The notes: generated by a model from the letters alone, not told the origin. A DNA stretch of 64,000 nt from Desulfobacteraceae bacterium (GCA_013003715.1 JABDIN010000097.1:1-64000); one strand, 5' to 3'. Positions 1 to 5,131 are shown, counted from the first letter of the stretch. Numbers and translations: made by a program.

Positions 1-90
1 ATACCCGGTTGCCATACCGCTACACCCTTCGCCCCCATCGGGCTGGGTCTGGGACTTGCAAAGCCTTGGTTTTACATGATAGACTCCGCT

Positions 91-128
91 CACCCTTAAG
101 AACATGTGCCGTACCCGGCACACAACAA
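91..128 (+). repeat. Short hairpin repeat preceding an attC-like site, copy 1
   Basis: This 38-bp stretch, beginning cacccttaagaa and ending cacacaacaa, is nearly identical to positions 4264-4301. Its centre is a small hairpin, GTGCC/GGCAC. A more diverged relative lies at about 1207-1243. It directly precedes an attC-like inverted repeat, so it may be the end of a cassette, a short terminator or part of a larger recombination site. The function is inferred only. Confidence 0.5.
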
Positions 129-246
129 CCAGGTGCACTTGGACGCCGTAAGCTGGCGCTTTTTCAAAGTGTGTCCTTAAAAATAACTATTAACCTTTTC
201 ACAATTTTTGTGGGAGCTTACGGCGCCCGTGACCTGGAGCGTTCTG
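121..246 (+). other. attC-like site A (integron cassette recombination site)
   Basis: A long imperfect inverted repeat pairs about 129-154 (CCAGGTGCAC..CGCCGTAAGCT) with about 215-238 (AGCTTACGGCG..GACCTGG), with extra unpaired bases as is usual for attC. The left end carries AACAAC and the right end GCGTTC, matching the AAC...GTT core-site logic of attC. The loop is large, about 60 nt, giving a site of about 126 bp. The next gene's Shine-Dalgarno (GGAG, 236-239) sits in the right arm. Confidence 0.6.
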
Positions 247-249
247 TGT

Positions 250-591
250 ATGAAAAGCGAATTAATGAATATTATTGCACTTATTTTCATTATGGTGATT
301 TCATTTTTCGGGTGCCATAGTGAAATTGTTGATGAAACTGTTGAATTGATTTGGGATGGTTCAGGAAAACCCCATGATATAACGACTCCAAATGGATTTG
401 AAATTAGTCCTGAGTATGCTTACTCAAAAGTGTGGGATAAAAAAATACTCTCTCCGAAACACATCTGGCACATATATGCAGATAAAGAAAGCTATTATAT
501 AATTGATTCTTTTCTTGGATCAAGTCCTCTCAGAGCTTTGCGAGAAGGAATTATAATTGATGGTAAAACAGGAATGATAAAAAATAGATAA
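250..591 (+). CDS. Small predicted lipoprotein, cassette-borne
   Basis: This 113-residue protein has no family I recognise. The start at 250 was chosen because it lies 10 bp after a GGAG motif and begins a lipoprotein-type signal: a hydrophobic stretch at residues 6-19 ending in F-F-G-C with Cys22 as the likely lipidation site. The mature part is short and polar with several Trp and Tyr residues. The gene lies between attC-like sites A and B, so it is the single gene of one cassette. Its AT-rich composition differs from the housekeeping genes further right, which fits acquisition by transfer. An envelope location is inferred from the signal sequence only. Confidence 0.65.
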   Translation: MKSELMNIIALIFIMVISFFGCHSEIVDETVELIWDGSGKPHDITTPNGFEISPEYAYSKVWDKKILSPKHIWHIYADKESYYIIDSFLGSSPLRALREGIIIDGKTGMIKNR

Positions 592-602
592 AGTATTCAC
601 AC

Positions 603-724
603 AGAACAAAACACTGGAGCAAACAGCAAGGAGAATGCGGCTGTAGAATTTTCCAATATTGGGGAGAAACGGACTACTTGGTGATTTTTCCTTTCCCTTG
701 CTGTTTGCTCAGCTTGCCGTTCGG
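603..724 (+). other. attC-like site B
   Basis: A perfect 15-bp inverted repeat, GAGCAAACAGCAAGG (617-631) with CCTTGCTGTTTGCTC (696-710), is flanked by AGAAC on the left and CCGTTC on the right. The AAC and GTT ends and the position 12 bp after the preceding stop codon fit an attC site of about 120 bp with a loop of about 64 nt. The cores deviate from the strict RYYYAAC/GTTRRRY consensus. Confidence 0.55.
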
Positions 725-748
725 CAACAACAAGAGGATACCTCCCAT

Positions 749-1153
749 ATGCCAATCGTTCCTTGCTCTAGTGAGCTGATGGATCAGGCCGAGTCTCTTG
801 TTCGGTTTGTGTTTAAATGGATGACCCCCATCGAAAGATTCAGCTTTTTTGCAATCAAGTATCCAGAAAGCATTGCAGGCCGTTTGCTGATGTCTCTTGC
901 CGGAATCAAGGATAAGGTCGCATTCGATGTCGCTGCACAACCGCGCCATTTAACGTATCTCCTGAACCTGGGGCTTTGTTATGTTGTGCTAACTTACCCG
1001 GAGCCTCGGCCTTATATGACGTTTCTGTTCGTCGGCTCACAGTTTTGCACTCGGGGTTGGACGCTCCCTACGATCGCTCTCGCCTGCGGTGAGCCTTCCG
1101 CTTCGCTTCGCCTTCAGACGGTCCCTGACGGTTCCGCCCTTGCCTTTGGCTAA
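749..1153 (+). CDS. Doubtful cassette reading frame
   Basis: An open frame of 134 codons starts at ATG 749, about 12 bp after a GAGGA motif, in the interval between attC-like sites B and C. The first 90 residues have a plausible protein composition (a Trp-Met-Thr-Pro segment, then hydrophobic stretches). The C-terminal 40 residues read like translated GC-rich repeat DNA. I recognise no family. The cassette may instead be non-coding or hold a decayed gene; an opposing frame at 674-949 looks no better. Confidence 0.22.
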   Translation: MPIVPCSSELMDQAESLVRFVFKWMTPIERFSFFAIKYPESIAGRLLMSLAGIKDKVAFDVAAQPRHLTYLLNLGLCYVVLTYPEPRPYMTFLFVGSQFCTRGWTLPTIALACGEPSASLRLQTVPDGSALAFG

Positions 1154-1235
1154 TGTTTGTGTCAATAATATCAGCCATTAACAGGATTCCCACATAGGGG
1201 ACTTACACCCCATAAGTTCACGCCCATGCCGGGCG

Positions 1236-1303
1236 TACACAATTAGGTGCACCTGACTGGTGTTTCGCTGCGCTACACACCACCAGGTGACCTTGGCGTT
1301 CAA
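1236..1303 (+). other. attC-like site C
   Basis: The left arm AGGTGCACCTGaCTGGTGT (about 1244-1263) pairs with the right arm ACACACCAcCAGGTGACCT (about 1275-1293) around a short GC-rich loop. The right core is GGCGTTC (1295-1301). The left core, ACACAATT, has lost the canonical AAC. Arm asymmetry with single bulged bases is the hallmark of attC. It directly precedes the SnoaL-like gene at 1322. Confidence 0.6.
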
Positions 1304-1321
1304 GATGATTGGAGAAATTAC

Positions 1322-1774
1322 TTGAGTACAGAAATAGCAAAAAAGATTCAAGAAATGGTAGATCTTGAAACCAAGGGGTGGGATACGAAAAATCCTGATC
1401 CATTCCTATCCATGATCCATCCAGATTTGGCTTGGCCATTTCCGCCAACAGCAGACTCCCATGATCCTATCGACTGGGTCTTTGTAATGGGCAAATTTGA
1501 TAGAGATCGGTGGCGCAGGAACTGGCAGGACCTATTTGATTCCTATGATTTAGTCCATAATCATCGTGATACTATGAAGATTGAAATTTCCAAAGAACAG
1601 GATGCAGCATTTGCTGTGGTCGATATAGACACCCTTTGGCGTCATAAAATCTCCAAAGAAGAATCTCATTGGAAGGGGCGCGTTTGTAAAATATACACAA
1701 AACTATCTACTGGTGAATGGAAATTTTATTACCAAACGGGGGCGCTCAAGTTTCCACCTCAAATGAGCGCCTAA
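1322..1774 (+). CDS. SnoaL-like / NTF2-fold protein, cassette-borne
   Basis: This 150-residue protein resembles small SnoaL-like or DUF4440 proteins of the NTF2 fold. It has an N-terminal helix with a Trp-Asp segment, an Asp-Pro-Phe-Leu-Ser-Met-Ile-His-Pro-Asp motif near residue 30, a Phe-Asp-Arg segment followed by a helix, then beta strands ending in a Trp-Lys-Phe-Tyr-Tyr-Gln strand typical of the fold's last sheet. A TTG start at 1322 is preferred: GGAG lies 7 bp upstream, whereas upstream in-frame starts fall inside attC-like site C. The stop codon TAA is embedded in the left core of attC-like site D, the classic arrangement of integron cassette genes. The substrate cannot be told. Confidence 0.65.
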   Translation: MSTEIAKKIQEMVDLETKGWDTKNPDPFLSMIHPDLAWPFPPTADSHDPIDWVFVMGKFDRDRWRRNWQDLFDSYDLVHNHRDTMKIEISKEQDAAFAVVDIDTLWRHKISKEESHWKGRVCKIYTKLSTGEWKFYYQTGALKFPPQMSA

Positions 1775-1841
1775 CGAATGCCTTTCACTCGGATGGCAAT
1801 TCCGCTGCGTTCCACCGCCACCGGTGAAGGCCACGTTATAA
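1769..1841 (+). other. attC-like site D
   Basis: The left core is GCCTAAC (1769-1775), an exact RYYYAAC match containing the stop codon of the upstream gene. The arms are CCTTTCACtcGGatGGC and GCCaCCGGTGAAGG around a loop of about 20 nt, and the right core begins GTTATAA (1835-1841). The total length, 73 bp, is typical of attC. This is one of the two clearest sites in the array. Confidence 0.75.
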
Positions 1842-1863
1842 CTGCATAGCTATGAGAAGTGAT

Positions 1864-2130
1864 CTATGAAATATTTCTGTAGATATCTTTTCGGTGACCG
1901 ATTTTTATTACCAAAATGACAAAGATATCCGCTTGAATTTCATAAACGATCCGATAATCTCCAACCCTAACTCGATGAAAGGGATTGTTCCCTTTCAGTT
2001 TTGTCGTTTCCGGGTCTGGGAGATCATCTGCAAAGCTATCGATTTTCTCAACTATGCGCGTTCTATCAGGTTTCGGAATTTTCTTGAGGGATTTCGCAGC
2101 GGAATTTTTGATTTCAATCCGATAGCTCAA
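1864..2130 (-). CDS. RelE/ParE-family toxin of a cassette-borne toxin-antitoxin module
   Basis: This 88-residue protein has the RelE/ParE pattern: N-terminal Y-R-I-E-I, then helices rich in Lys with a Lys-Lys-Ile-Pro segment, a central L-K-G-N-N-P-F-H-R-V-R-V-G-D-Y-R-I-V-Y block, and a C-terminal I-G-H-R-K-D-I-Y motif. RelE-type members cleave mRNA on the ribosome while ParE-type members poison gyrase; sequence alone does not decide which applies. The start overlaps the antitoxin stop by 4 bp, so translation is probably coupled. The pair reads opposite to the other cassette genes and carries its own promoter, as is common for toxin-antitoxin cassettes that stabilise integron arrays. Confidence 0.85.
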   Translation of the reverse strand: MSYRIEIKNSAAKSLKKIPKPDRTRIVEKIDSFADDLPDPETTKLKGNNPFHRVRVGDYRIVYEIQADIFVILVIKIGHRKDIYRNIS

Positions 2131-2378
2131 AGCTCAAGCTCCTTTTTCAATTCCTCCCAAGGTATCGGGTCACCGGGTTCATTTTTCGATTTCCAGGCGT
2201 CTTCAATATCTATCTGGTCCTCTAATTCTAGCAAAAGTTTGAGCTCTTTTATTGAAACTATCGCGGCCAAGGGCTCGCCACGGCGCGTTAGAACAAAGGA
2301 TTCATTTCCAAAGGCCACCCGGTTTAAAATATTTGAAAGTTTTTTTCTGGCGTCTGCGATTGTTATTTTGTTAAGCAT
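2127..2378 (-). CDS. Phd/YefM-family antitoxin
   Basis: This 83-residue protein resembles Phd/YefM antitoxins. It starts with a short strand and an A-D-A-R-K-K-L-S-N-I-L-N-R-V helix, followed by S-F-V-L-T-R-R-G-E-P-L-A-A-I-V-S, the conserved DNA-binding N-domain. The acidic C-terminus would wrap the toxin. The ATG at 2378 is chosen because GGAGA lies 7 bp upstream; an in-frame ATG at 2435 would run through the operator. It should repress its own promoter at the palindrome 2397-2430 together with the toxin. Confidence 0.85.
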   Translation of the reverse strand: MLNKITIADARKKLSNILNRVAFGNESFVLTRRGEPLAAIVSIKELKLLLELEDQIDIEDAWKSKNEPGDPIPWEELKKELEL

Positions 2379-2396
2379 GACTTTTCTCCAAATGTA

Positions 2397-2430
2397 TATA
2401 TTGTACAATTGGTAGCAATAGTACAATATA
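2397..2430 (-). promoter_or_regulatory. Autoregulatory promoter/operator of the toxin-antitoxin pair
   Basis: A perfect 10-bp inverted repeat, TATATTGTAC and GTACAATATA, is separated by 14 bp. Read on the minus strand it contains TTGTAC, a 17-bp spacer and CAATAT, which fits a sigma-70 promoter overlapping its operator. It lies 19-52 bp upstream of the antitoxin start. Binding by the antitoxin is inferred from position. Confidence 0.6.
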
Positions 2431-2471
2431 TACATAAAATATCAATAAACTTTATTCGTTATGATAACGTC

Positions 2472-2600
2472 AAGTTATAACATCACCATTCACAAGGATT
2501 CGCAGGGTCATGCTGATTTTACATTAGCGCAATATGGTGTTTACCAAGCTTTTGCAAAGGCTTCATTCCCTGCTCACCTGTGATGGTGGCCATTTCGATA
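2472..2600 (+). other. Degenerate attC-like site E
   Basis: The left arm CACCATTCACAaGGattcGCAGGG (about 2482-2505) pairs with the right arm CCCTGCtcaCCTGTGATGGTGG (about 2567-2590). The left end has TTATAAC; the expected GTT core on the right is not evident. The site separates the toxin-antitoxin cassette from the zinc-ribbon gene. It may be an attC decayed at one end. The remainder of 2601-2751 shows no gene. Confidence 0.4.
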
Positions 2601-2751
2601 GTTTATTATTGTAGATAACAAGTATTGCTAATTATAGGATTGTTACAACGTTGATTTGAAGAAAGATGTCTGGAAAAAATTATAGAAACCAAAGAAAGTG
2701 TGATAAGTGGTTTGTATTTACAGTTTCTTTACCATAAAGGAGTATTTCATT

Positions 2752-3018
2752 ATGGCCCACCAAAAGCACATCCCTGTCCCAAAGAACACGAAAGCATTTA
2801 TTTGCGCCGATTGTGGGGCTGTTTCACTTGATGTAAACAATATCTGCAAAGTCCAGGGAATGGTATTAAAATCAGACTGGTGTGGCGTCAAAGGGTCAAA
2901 GCCACCCAAAACCTGCCTTAAAAAAGAACATACAGAGAGATGGCAATGTCGAAATTGCGGGCAAACATCTGTTAATGCCAGTTTGTTGTGTGACCCGGAA
3001 CAAATAGAAATATCCTGA
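2752..3018 (+). CDS. Small two-module zinc-ribbon-like protein
   Basis: This 88-residue protein has two similar Cys modules: one at about residues 19-35 (F-I-C-A-D-C-G-A... N-I-C-K) and one near residues 65-81 (W-Q-C-R-N-C-G-Q-T-S-V... L-L-C-D-P-E-Q-I). An intervening loop holds two further Cys residues. The C-x2-C-G...L-C pattern suggests zinc binding. The start at 2752 is supported by AAGGAG 8 bp upstream. The second module matches a 55-residue chromosomal protein at 23686-23853 (C-K-N-C-G-R-S... L-C-K-P-Q-Q-F), so this seems to be a local protein family with one cassette-borne member. The function is unknown. Confidence 0.7.
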   Translation: MAHQKHIPVPKNTKAFICADCGAVSLDVNNICKVQGMVLKSDWCGVKGSKPPKTCLKKEHTERWQCRNCGQTSVNASLLCDPEQIEIS

Positions 3019-3169
3019 TAACTTAAACACAGCTAGTGGTCCCGGTAGTTTGGTAACCCACATACCATTAAGTTCATAATTTATTGCATTATATAGTATT
3101 CGAACCTCGGCTTTCAGGCGACTCGGTTCCCTCGCGCCTTATGCCGGCATGTTCTGCAACAGGATACAA

Positions 3170-3520
3170 ATGAAACGAAAACTTTCAGATATTTTCATTG
3201 AAATAGCTTTACAGGGCTTAAAGGAACCTAAATATGGCAATTCCGAAATAATGCACCCATTGATGATTTTGGCACATATTGCTTGGCAACGAGAAACGTC
3301 TGATCCAAATTTTATGGAAGGTCAATATGAAGAGGAAATTGCAAAATTCAATTTTCCACAAATAAAAATAAAGACTGAATTGATATCCACCGATTGGAGT
3401 TCAATACTAGAGAGAATGCGGAATTATAAAAGGCTCAGATTTCCAGATGATAATCGCATTGTAACTTTATGTGGTTTTACTCCACGGAATACTCTTCGGG
3501 TTGAATGGAAAGAAAATTAA
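3170..3520 (+). CDS. Hypothetical cassette protein
   Basis: This 116-residue protein is not recognised. It has a basic start, an amphipathic helix, then a segment with H-P-L-M-I-L-A-H-I-A-W, an acidic Met-Glu-Gly-Gln-Tyr-Glu-Glu-Glu stretch, and a C-terminal half with beta-strand character ending in Arg-Val-Glu-Trp-Lys-Glu-Asn. There is no signal peptide, so it is probably cytoplasmic. The ATG at 3170 is preferred over 3149 because AGGA lies just upstream. The gene is markedly AT-rich and is followed within 4 bp by attC-like site G, so it is a typical orphan integron-cassette gene. Confidence 0.6.
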   Translation: MKRKLSDIFIEIALQGLKEPKYGNSEIMHPLMILAHIAWQRETSDPNFMEGQYEEEIAKFNFPQIKIKTELISTDWSSILERMRNYKRLRFPDDNRIVTLCGFTPRNTLRVEWKEN

Positions 3521-3523
3521 GTG

Positions 3524-3653
3524 CAGAACAAATGTCGCTTGAGCGGTACCGAAAATAGCCTCGCATTTTAAACAATAAACATTGGGGCTGACTAATGAGA
3601 CTTCTGCAAAGGTTATCGGCCCACGTTTCCCGGCCTCTCAGCTTTGCGTTGGG
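3524..3653 (+). other. attC-like site G
   Basis: The left end CAGAACAAA (as in site B) and the right end GCGTTGGGA, with a GTTRRR core, bracket imperfectly pairing arms: AACaaAtG..GAGcGGtaCCG on the left, CGGcctctcAGctTTGCGTT on the right. The loop is long, about 60 nt. It begins 3 bp after the preceding stop codon. Pairing is weaker than in sites A-D, so the exact borders are uncertain. The following 3654-3788 holds another GC-rich hairpin (GCTGCTGCTC...GAGAGCAGCGG) but no gene. Confidence 0.45.
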
Positions 3654-3788
3654 ATTATCAGCGCGAATAGACCAATTAGTTGCCCTGAAAACTGACTGTT
3701 TGGATCATTATTTATAAAGAGATTACATGCTGCTGCTCCGGACGCTCGTCCCTTGCGCCTGAGAGCAGCGGCGTTTTTCGAGAAGAAA

Positions 3789-4208
3789 ATGAAGAATCTT
3801 ATTTTGCCAGTTATACTTTCAGCATGTGCATTCGGATGCCTCTATTCGGATGTTTCGATGTATTCTGTTAATGACAGATCTTACTTCAGAGAAATGCCAA
3901 TTGTTGAAGAATGTGAAGATAGGCTGAAGTTGAAATGGATCTTTGGAGAATTTGGATTCTACTTCTCACCATCATGCAAAAATCTTGATAAAAAGCTTTA
4001 TTGTATGGTGAGCGGTACAACTAGCACTGGAGACAGCACTGGCAAAACCGGGACAGTTTTAATCACAGATTATAAAGAGGTTCGTGCGGGAAAAAGATAT
4101 AGTGTCCATTGGATAGAACCTGATGGTCAAGTCATAAAATTGAAAATGGTCGATGGGGGAAAGAGTTGCAACTCAAACTCTGAAGAACAAAAAGGAAAAG
4201 AAGAATAG
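3789..4208 (+). CDS. Predicted lipoprotein, cassette-borne
   Basis: This 139-residue protein begins M-K-N-L-I-L-P-V-I-L-S-A-C-A-F-G-C, a short lipoprotein signal with a probable lipidated Cys at residue 17. The ATG at 3789 is chosen over 3753 because it follows a GAGAAGA purine stretch and starts the signal peptide. The mature domain has four further Cys residues that could form disulfides, a T-G-K-T-G-T-V-L-I-T strand and a basic tail. I know no family. Like the lipoprotein at 250-591, it suggests that this array is rich in envelope proteins. Confidence 0.6.
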   Translation: MKNLILPVILSACAFGCLYSDVSMYSVNDRSYFREMPIVEECEDRLKLKWIFGEFGFYFSPSCKNLDKKLYCMVSGTTSTGDSTGKTGTVLITDYKEVRAGKRYSVHWIEPDGQVIKLKMVDGGKSCNSNSEEQKGKEE

Positions 4209-4263
4209 AACGAATAACATGGTCTTCAGCAGATCGCGAGAACCATGCGCCCGCTGCTCATCG

Positions 4264-4301
4264 CACCCTTAAGAATAGGTGCCGTGCCCGGCACACAACA
4301 A
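4264..4301 (+). repeat. Short hairpin repeat, copy 2
   Basis: This matches positions 91-128 with only a few changes: cacccttaagaa, a GTGCC...GGCAC hairpin, then cacacaacaa. As in copy 1, an inverted-repeat region follows (GATGCAAATT...AATTTGCAAC, about 4318-4360), but there the expected GTT core is missing. The repeat marks the boundary between two cassette genes. Confidence 0.5.
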
Positions 4302-4376
4302 GACAAATTAACACGGATGCAAATTCCGCTATCAATCCATTTGCACTGGCAATTTGCAACATTAACCGACCGTCAA

Positions 4377-4661
4377 ATGAAAAAAACGAGCAAAACCCTT
4401 CAAAAGATTACGGGCTTGAGACGTCCCAGACACCCAATGCTGGATTTTGTTAAGCGAGCACTGAAAGAAAATGGCCTGATGGCTGAATACCAAGCGCGCC
4501 CTGCATATCAGCAGAATGACTATATCGGATGGATAAACAATGCGAAGCTTCAAGGAACGAAAGAAAAGCGACTTATCCAGATGCTTGAGGAGCTTAAGAA
4601 GGGTGGCGTTTATATGAAAATGCCGCACCAGCCATCGAAGAAAAACAAGAAAGGTGTGTGA
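4377..4661 (+). CDS. YdeI/OmpD-associated-like protein, short form
   Basis: This 94-residue protein resembles the C-terminal part of YdeI/OmpD-associated family proteins, with the segment R-P-A-Y-Q-Q-N-D-Y-I-G-W-I followed by a basic helix K-R-L-I-Q-M-L-E-E-L and Y-M-K-M near the end. Only the C-terminal helical region is present, so it is shorter than usual members, which carry an additional N-terminal domain. The start at 4377 is the first Met of the recognisable domain; the upstream frame runs through repeat DNA. The RidA gene starts inside its stop codon region (GTGA overlap), so the two appear translationally coupled within one cassette. The molecular function of the family is poorly defined. 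Confidence 0.6.
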   Translation: MKKTSKTLQKITGLRRPRHPMLDFVKRALKENGLMAEYQARPAYQQNDYIGWINNAKLQGTKEKRLIQMLEELKKGGVYMKMPHQPSKKNKKGV

Positions 4662-5077
4662 GTGCAATGAGCGTAAAATACCTAAATCCGGATCGTTTAC
4701 ATGAAAATCCTGCTTTCTCTCAGGTCGTTACTACCGAGGGTAATGCGCGAACCGTTTATGTAGGCGGTCAGAATTCCGTCAGTCCCTCCGGCGAGGTGGT
4801 CGGAAAAGGTGATATGCGACAACAAGCGAGTCAGGTTTTTAAAAACCTTGAGATCGCCCTCTCTGCAGCAGATGCACGGATAGAAAATGTCATCAAATGG
4901 AATGTTTACGTTGTTCAAGACCAACCGCCACATCCAGCGTTTGAAGAATTCCAACGTGTATGGGGTAACCGTCCGAACCCGCCACTTGTCACGGTTCTTT
5001 TTGTTGCAGGGTTGGCGAACCCGGACTTTCTGTTGGAGATTGATGCAATTGCAGTCGTCTCTGAAAACAATGGCTAA
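4658..5077 (+). CDS. RidA/YjgF/YER057c-family protein
   Basis: This 139-residue protein matches the Rid family in length and motif order: N-P-D-R-L near the start, a V-Y-V-G-G-Q-N-S-V-S segment, Q-A-S-Q-V-F-K-N-L-E-I-A-L helix, N-V-I-K-W-N-V-Y-V strand, P-P-L-V-T-V-L-F-V-A-G-L, and a terminal E-I-D-A-I-A-V. Archetypal RidA deaminates reactive enamine/imine intermediates using an Arg before the C-terminal E-I-x-A segment. Here the position reads A-N-P-D-F-L-L-E-I-D, without that Arg, so the protein belongs to one of the other Rid groups and deaminase activity is doubtful. A GTG at 4658 (coupled) or ATG at 4667 may start it. The stop TAA lies in the left core of attC-like site I. Confidence 0.8.
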   Translation: MSAMSVKYLNPDRLHENPAFSQVVTTEGNARTVYVGGQNSVSPSGEVVGKGDMRQQASQVFKNLEIALSAADARIENVIKWNVYVVQDQPPHPAFEEFQRVWGNRPNPPLVTVLFVAGLANPDFLLEIDAIAVVSENNG

Positions 5078-5131
5078 CAAAGAAAATTCAACTGACGCAA
5101 AAAGCCGCGCGGCTGATTTGCGGCGTTATGT
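5072..5131 (+). other. attC-like site I, clearest of the array
   Basis: GGCTAAC (5072-5078, with the RidA stop codon inside) opens the site and GCGTTATG (5123-5130) closes it. The inner arms GACGCAAAaAGCCGC and GCGGCTgATTTGCGGC form a long hairpin with single-base asymmetries. The 60-bp length, core sequences and stop codon placement are like classic resistance-cassette attC sites. Sequence immediately right of its crossover point (the G/TT step) is decayed IS-associated coding DNA. Confidence 0.8.

Follow-up and report, generated by a model that had tools for sequence, protein, structure and literature searches.

An integron cassette array carrying group II intron fragments in a Desulfobacteraceae genome, and an integrase gene that may be governed by its own LexA

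The stretch of DNA analysed here, called the window, is the first 64,000 nucleotides of contig C98 (138,727 bases) of a Desulfobacteraceae genome of 5.5 Mb in 115 contigs. Its first 5,131 bases, at the very start of the contig, are an integron cassette array, confirming what a sequence-only reading had proposed: attC sites alternate with small genes, and several junctions carry fragments of group II introns of two types, alpha and beta. The features are as follows, with bit scores from two attC covariance models, R1 and R2, described below.

1-121, minus strand: 5' part of a type beta intron, its 5' end adjoining attC site A; runs off the contig end
120-247, plus strand: attC site A (R2 30.6 bits, R1 14.0); its left core is the intron junction
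250-591, plus strand: cassette gene, 113 aa, with a lipoprotein-like signal (FFGC), unmatched in Pfam and NCBIfam
601-725, plus strand: attC site B (R2 29.8 bits, R1 26.0)
749-1153, plus strand: cassette reading frame, seen in sequence and translation, whose 3' part continues into intron sequence, antisense
919-1238, minus strand: type alpha intron, the 5' 320 nt including domain I, without the 3' part (Rfam and plasmid match)
1239-1304, plus strand: attC site C (R1 21.4; R2 20.0 bits at 1239-1299), its left core interrupted by the intron
1322-1774, plus strand: cassette gene of about 150 aa that starts at TTG and matches no family; stop within the left core of an attC
1769-1841, plus strand: attC site D (R2 31.6 bits, R1 17.6)
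1864-2130, minus strand: ParE-type toxin gene of a toxin-antitoxin pair inside the array (Pfam PF05016, 51 bits)
2127-2435, minus strand: Phd/YefM-type antitoxin gene (Pfam PF02604, 44.8 bits)
2752-3018, plus strand: cassette gene, 88 aa, cysteine-rich and zinc-ribbon-like; family matches sub-threshold only
3099-3157, plus strand: seventh attC site (R2 16.7 bits; R1 just 2.7)
3170-3520, plus strand: cassette gene, 116 aa, no meaningful family match
3523-3654, plus strand: attC site G (R2 18.1 bits, R1 8.2)
3789-4208, plus strand: lipoprotein-like cassette gene of 139 aa that matches no family
4211-4263, plus strand: possible attC remnant lacking a right core, recognised by eye with no model match, adjoining an intron scrap
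4264-4294, minus strand: type beta intron, a 31-nt scrap from its 5' end (91% identity over 34 nt to window 91-124)
4377-4661, plus strand: YdeI/OmdA-like gene, first of a two-gene cassette (Pfam PF13376, 32.2 bits)
4667-5077, plus strand: Rid-family (L-PSP) cassette gene (Pfam PF01042, 67.2 bits); stop within the left core of an attC
5072-5131, plus strand: attC site I (R2 14.4 bits, R1 10.0), the end of the array

The letters are those of the sequence-only reading, which gave them without coordinates; they are taken to denote the intervals above. The end of site C at 1304 was set by eye, reaching the right core GTTCAAG. Judging from the sequence, the actual gene within the frame at 749-1153 probably stopped or was truncated near 920. 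A 20-nt near-perfect inverted repeat (2392-2435) spans the start of the Phd-type antitoxin gene, and from its position is probably that gene's own operator. The region of site I (5039-5129) is 79% identical to a second locus in the genome, C73:127453-127541.

Searching with a fixed attC pattern did not discriminate the sites in the window sharply enough, and covariance models were therefore used. For R1, intI loci were taken from other genomes, and 34 attC sites upstream of intI, chosen by core and stem pattern, were aligned; 88.6% of the cells in this alignment are paired, with a covariation score of 0.51, compared with 0.16 after shuffling and 0.05-0.11 after sliding. Checked on 14 integron loci of other genomes, R1 placed 80 of 81 matches on the expected strand upstream of intI, about 50 of the 81 being outside its training set. 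R2 was built from 86 sites, five from other contigs of the same genome and none from the window. Calibration of both models was short, so that their E-values are rough and bit scores are the safer guide.

On both strands of the 64 kb, the top five R1 matches all fall in 1-5131 on the plus strand. R2 finds seven attC sites (14.4-31.6 bits), all likewise on the plus strand of 1-5131; its best score beyond the array is 9.3 bits, and it also gives 11.7 bits on the minus strand within an intron fragment. All six inverted repeats with AAC...GTT-type cores picked out by the sequence-only reading are among these seven, including both D and I, the two sites at which a covariance match had been proposed as a check, with I the weakest of the seven. 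At these same two sites the upstream stop codon does lie inside the left core, as had been noticed: TAA at 1772-1774 in GCCTAAC, and TAA at 5075-5077 in GGCTAAC. The seventh site (3099-3157) and the intron fragments had gone unremarked in that reading. Several attC sites, all oriented alike and with their R and L boxes paired, lie close together in the array, and its small genes stop within or shortly before them. An Rfam search of the window returned no match to an attC family, the intron being all that it recognised. Four of the seven sites score 20 bits or less, below most reference sites, so some of them may be decayed. Three hairpins, at about 93-121, 1208-1238 and 4264-4294, represent the 5' ends of introns and do not count as attC sites.

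Could the inverted repeats be chance structures, or ordinary terminators separating small genes? R1 gives some of the sites low scores (8-10 bits), and 3099-3157 is detected only with R2. This explanation would, however, need matches of equal strength scattered elsewhere, and in 483 kb of the same genome nearly all R2 matches are confined to arrays; in the 64 kb, the seven best are packed into 5.1 kb on one strand. The stops within the cores at D and I, and the location at these sites of introns of the group IIC-attC type, also speak against it, and it is scarcely credible.

Three cassette junctions in the window carry 5' fragments of group IIC-attC-like introns fused to attC. In the type alpha copy, domain I of the ribozyme core is recognisable: Rfam family RF02001 (D1-D4-3) matches 919-1135 on the minus strand with 85.1 bits. 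Its 5' end, which abuts attC at 1238, matches that of a group II intron lying antisense between cassettes in the class 1 integron of plasmid pCFR-0b27. Type beta has no Rfam family match and no useful match in plasmids, and is assigned to the introns solely by a 53-nt stretch (79%) that it shares with type alpha. The beta fragment at 1-121 is 81% identical to C14:2105-2200, which likewise abuts an attC, and type beta probably abuts attC at 4294 as well. The junctions at 121 and 4294 read TTGT/GTGCC (the slash marks the junction), and TTGT/G is found at five of the seven junctions compared, including that of pCFR-0b27 and all three in the window. TTGT is the target reported for group IIC-attC introns in PMC7923331. 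The insertions are in the bottom strand of attC at TTGT, antisense to the cassettes. In these respects, and in 5' sequence, they resemble the pCFR-0b27 intron (between cmlA6 and catB11); a class C reverse transcriptase, also typical of such introns, is encoded elsewhere in the genome. Unlike them, the window copies are truncated at the 3' end, as both internal ones are, and lack a reverse transcriptase, which makes them remnants rather than intact members; the truncated introns described in PMC7923331 are cut at the 5' end. It had been considered whether the first bases of the intron restore a good left core; this was abandoned, since the TTGT junction turns the core AAC into CAC.

Several other contigs hold related sequences. 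A class C intron reverse transcriptase gene lies at a contig edge (C94 1-2440) beside an IS66-like transposase gene, with attC sites further downstream. A group II intron that lacks an ORF and retains both its ends adjoins a probable attC at about C66 7830-8478, antisense to a cassette-like gene; a provisional view that no intron 3' ends were left in the genome was rejected on account of this copy, which an RF00029 search had missed. On C100 (10412-11070), a 74-nt alpha intron fragment is joined to an attC, and supplies the last codons and the stop of a methyltransferase-like frame.

Intron fragments between a gene and an attC call to mind the model of Leon and Roy (2009), in which, as cited in PMC7923331, recombination between introns joins an attC to a gene; the fragments would then be traces of cassette formation. 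In the window and on C100 the intron 5' end is at an attC and a gene or an attC end adjoins the opposite side, as this model would have it, and the stop codon provided by the C100 intron fits as well. Against it, fragments without a 3' end could not splice, the gene at 749-918 looks cut, and decay by deletion accounts for all cases; the scars are quite unlikely to have arisen by cassette formation. Read most simply, the introns invaded attC sites and later decayed. Scars of this kind are known, and what is unusual is their number.

The sequence-only reading had named an integrase within tens of kb as something that would support it, and one is present in the genome but not on the contig: a profile search of all 138.7 kb of C98 found no intI, and the sole complete IntI is encoded by an intact gene at the edge of another contig (C86:85-1029; 470 bits against a cut-off of 265, family TIGR02249), with just 12 bases between its start codon and the end of that contig. 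Its closest named relatives are from Deltaproteobacteria, Desulfobacteraceae, Desulfococcaceae and Desulfobacterales MAGs, in keeping with the Desulfobacterota host that had been surmised. The broken start of a second intI, with no lexA behind it, is at C64 1-308; it equals the C86 gene for the first 127 bases and then clearly diverges, and this exact sharing is the mark of an assembly branch. At least six other contigs (C73, C65, C95, C100, C14 and C94) carry further arrays, and C66 probably does too. An integron system is thus present in the genome, and the C86 unit, outside the window, is tied to the window array only as the genome's sole complete integrase.

C86 and C98 both terminate on the relevant side. 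Joining them through their ends was tried and rejected, since C86 shares its 127 bases only with C64; that integrase and array are on different contigs with no ends in common counts against their belonging together. One possibility, also raised by the sequence-only reading, is that the array is a CALIN, a cluster remote from any integrase that arose by off-target insertion or rearrangement, with the C86 IntI acting on it at most in trans. The absence of intI from the 138.7-kb contig favours this, as does the number of array contigs, at least six besides this one, compared with one complete intI: probably some of the arrays have become detached, unless all of them belong to a single long array. 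On the other side, the first base of C98 already lies within the array, in an intron of a repeated type; the side expected to hold intI is hence missing, and the orientation of the sites is compatible with an intI to the left. A CALIN is a serious contender, if slightly short of an even chance.

With chromosomal (sedentary) integrons and CALINs the window array shares like-oriented attC sites at the 3' ends of small, mostly uncharacterised genes, toxin-antitoxin genes within the array, and an IntI of family TIGR02249. Desulfobacterota have previously been found to carry integrons (PMC8618304). The differences are the distribution of the array over several contigs and a lexA gene of its own behind intI. 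On C86 (13-1679) the stop of intI overlaps the start of lexA, which encodes a product of 207 aa, and the same pair is found in eight other loci (L029, L030, L031, L165, L032, L133, L134 and L137). None of the other 75 loci in the first set has it, nor do most of those in the order sample; L034 and L132 have an intI-lexA pair with an unrelated LexA. In a tree of 111 IntI rows, the eight relatives and this genome form one clade of nine (98/99). Their LexA proteins also form a clade of their own (100/99), far from host-type LexA, and the two trees have the same branching order where resolved. Another lexA in this genome, at C112, is of the host type.

A palindrome, GAACAAATGTTC, lies upstream of intI in all eight relatives with promoter sequence, and the exact 14-mer TGAACAAATGTTCA in seven of the eight; in the genomes searched, the exact 14-mer is confined to those intI promoters. 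In L165 the palindrome is placed between TTGACA and TACAAT, and in L029, L030 and L032 directly before a TATAA-like box. The more distant intI of L034, with its different LexA, is without it. The palindrome has the form GAAC-N4-GTTC, which is that of Gram-positive LexA boxes. No exact operator was found in the genome studied here, as would be expected if it lay beyond the edge of C86, where the intI promoter is. In the LexA alignment the AG cleavage site is kept (AA in L032), as is the Ser/Lys pair. One genome, G196, has two such operons (L174 on C127 and L165 on C109), both with the exact operator.

The lexA gene might instead be a chance neighbour or passenger with no part in control. Chance neighbours do occur: in L143 a host-type lexA follows an unrelated intI by about 280 nt, and was excluded as an operon member because its LexA is host-type. 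This explanation is nonetheless unlikely, given a pair present in nine of nine members of one IntI clade, matching branching of the IntI and LexA trees, and an exact palindrome that stands nowhere in the genomes searched except in front of these intI genes. A dedicated regulator is the reading preferred here, and its closest known counterparts are integrases under SOS control. In Vibrio and class 1 integrons, as described in PMC3108266 and PMC8946536, the integrase is held off by the host LexA until the SOS response. The relatives' LexA-type palindrome at the intI promoter, the AG cleavage site and the Ser/Lys pair are features shared with such integrases (PMC3108266); the differences are that here the repressor gene is inside the integrase operon and the operator is GAAC-N4-GTTC.

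Taken together, the following account seems likely as a whole. Positions 1-5131 would be the downstream end of a cassette array in a Desulfobacterales-type genome, with cassettes inserted and shuffled at its attC sites by the C86 IntI, whose action on this array, like any recombination here, is predicted from the gene and the sites. Group IIC-attC introns would have entered several attC sites on the bottom strand, their 5' remnants now parting genes from attC, and the intron repeat is probably the cause of the contig break at base 1. The intI operon is most likely repressed by its own LexA, through putative binding to GAACAAATGTTC near the promoter; in this genome the palindrome is presumed from the relatives, as the promoter lies past the contig edge. 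RecA-triggered self-cleavage of LexA would then free the operon, in a postulated SOS release.

The array by itself is ordinary, one more chromosomal integron, and the novel part is the intI-lexA unit; in a search of the open-access literature, no report of an intI-lexA operon of this kind was found. The intron scars between genes and attC sites are natural material on the origin and decay of cassettes. There is a fairly good case that a Desulfobacterales-type integron lineage, this genome included, has an SOS switch of its own: an intI and a dedicated, separately evolved LexA in one operon, with a private operator, GAACAAATGTTC, allowing shuffling after DNA damage without the host LexA. If this is true, the integron would bring its own LexA for SOS control, instead of relying on that of its host.
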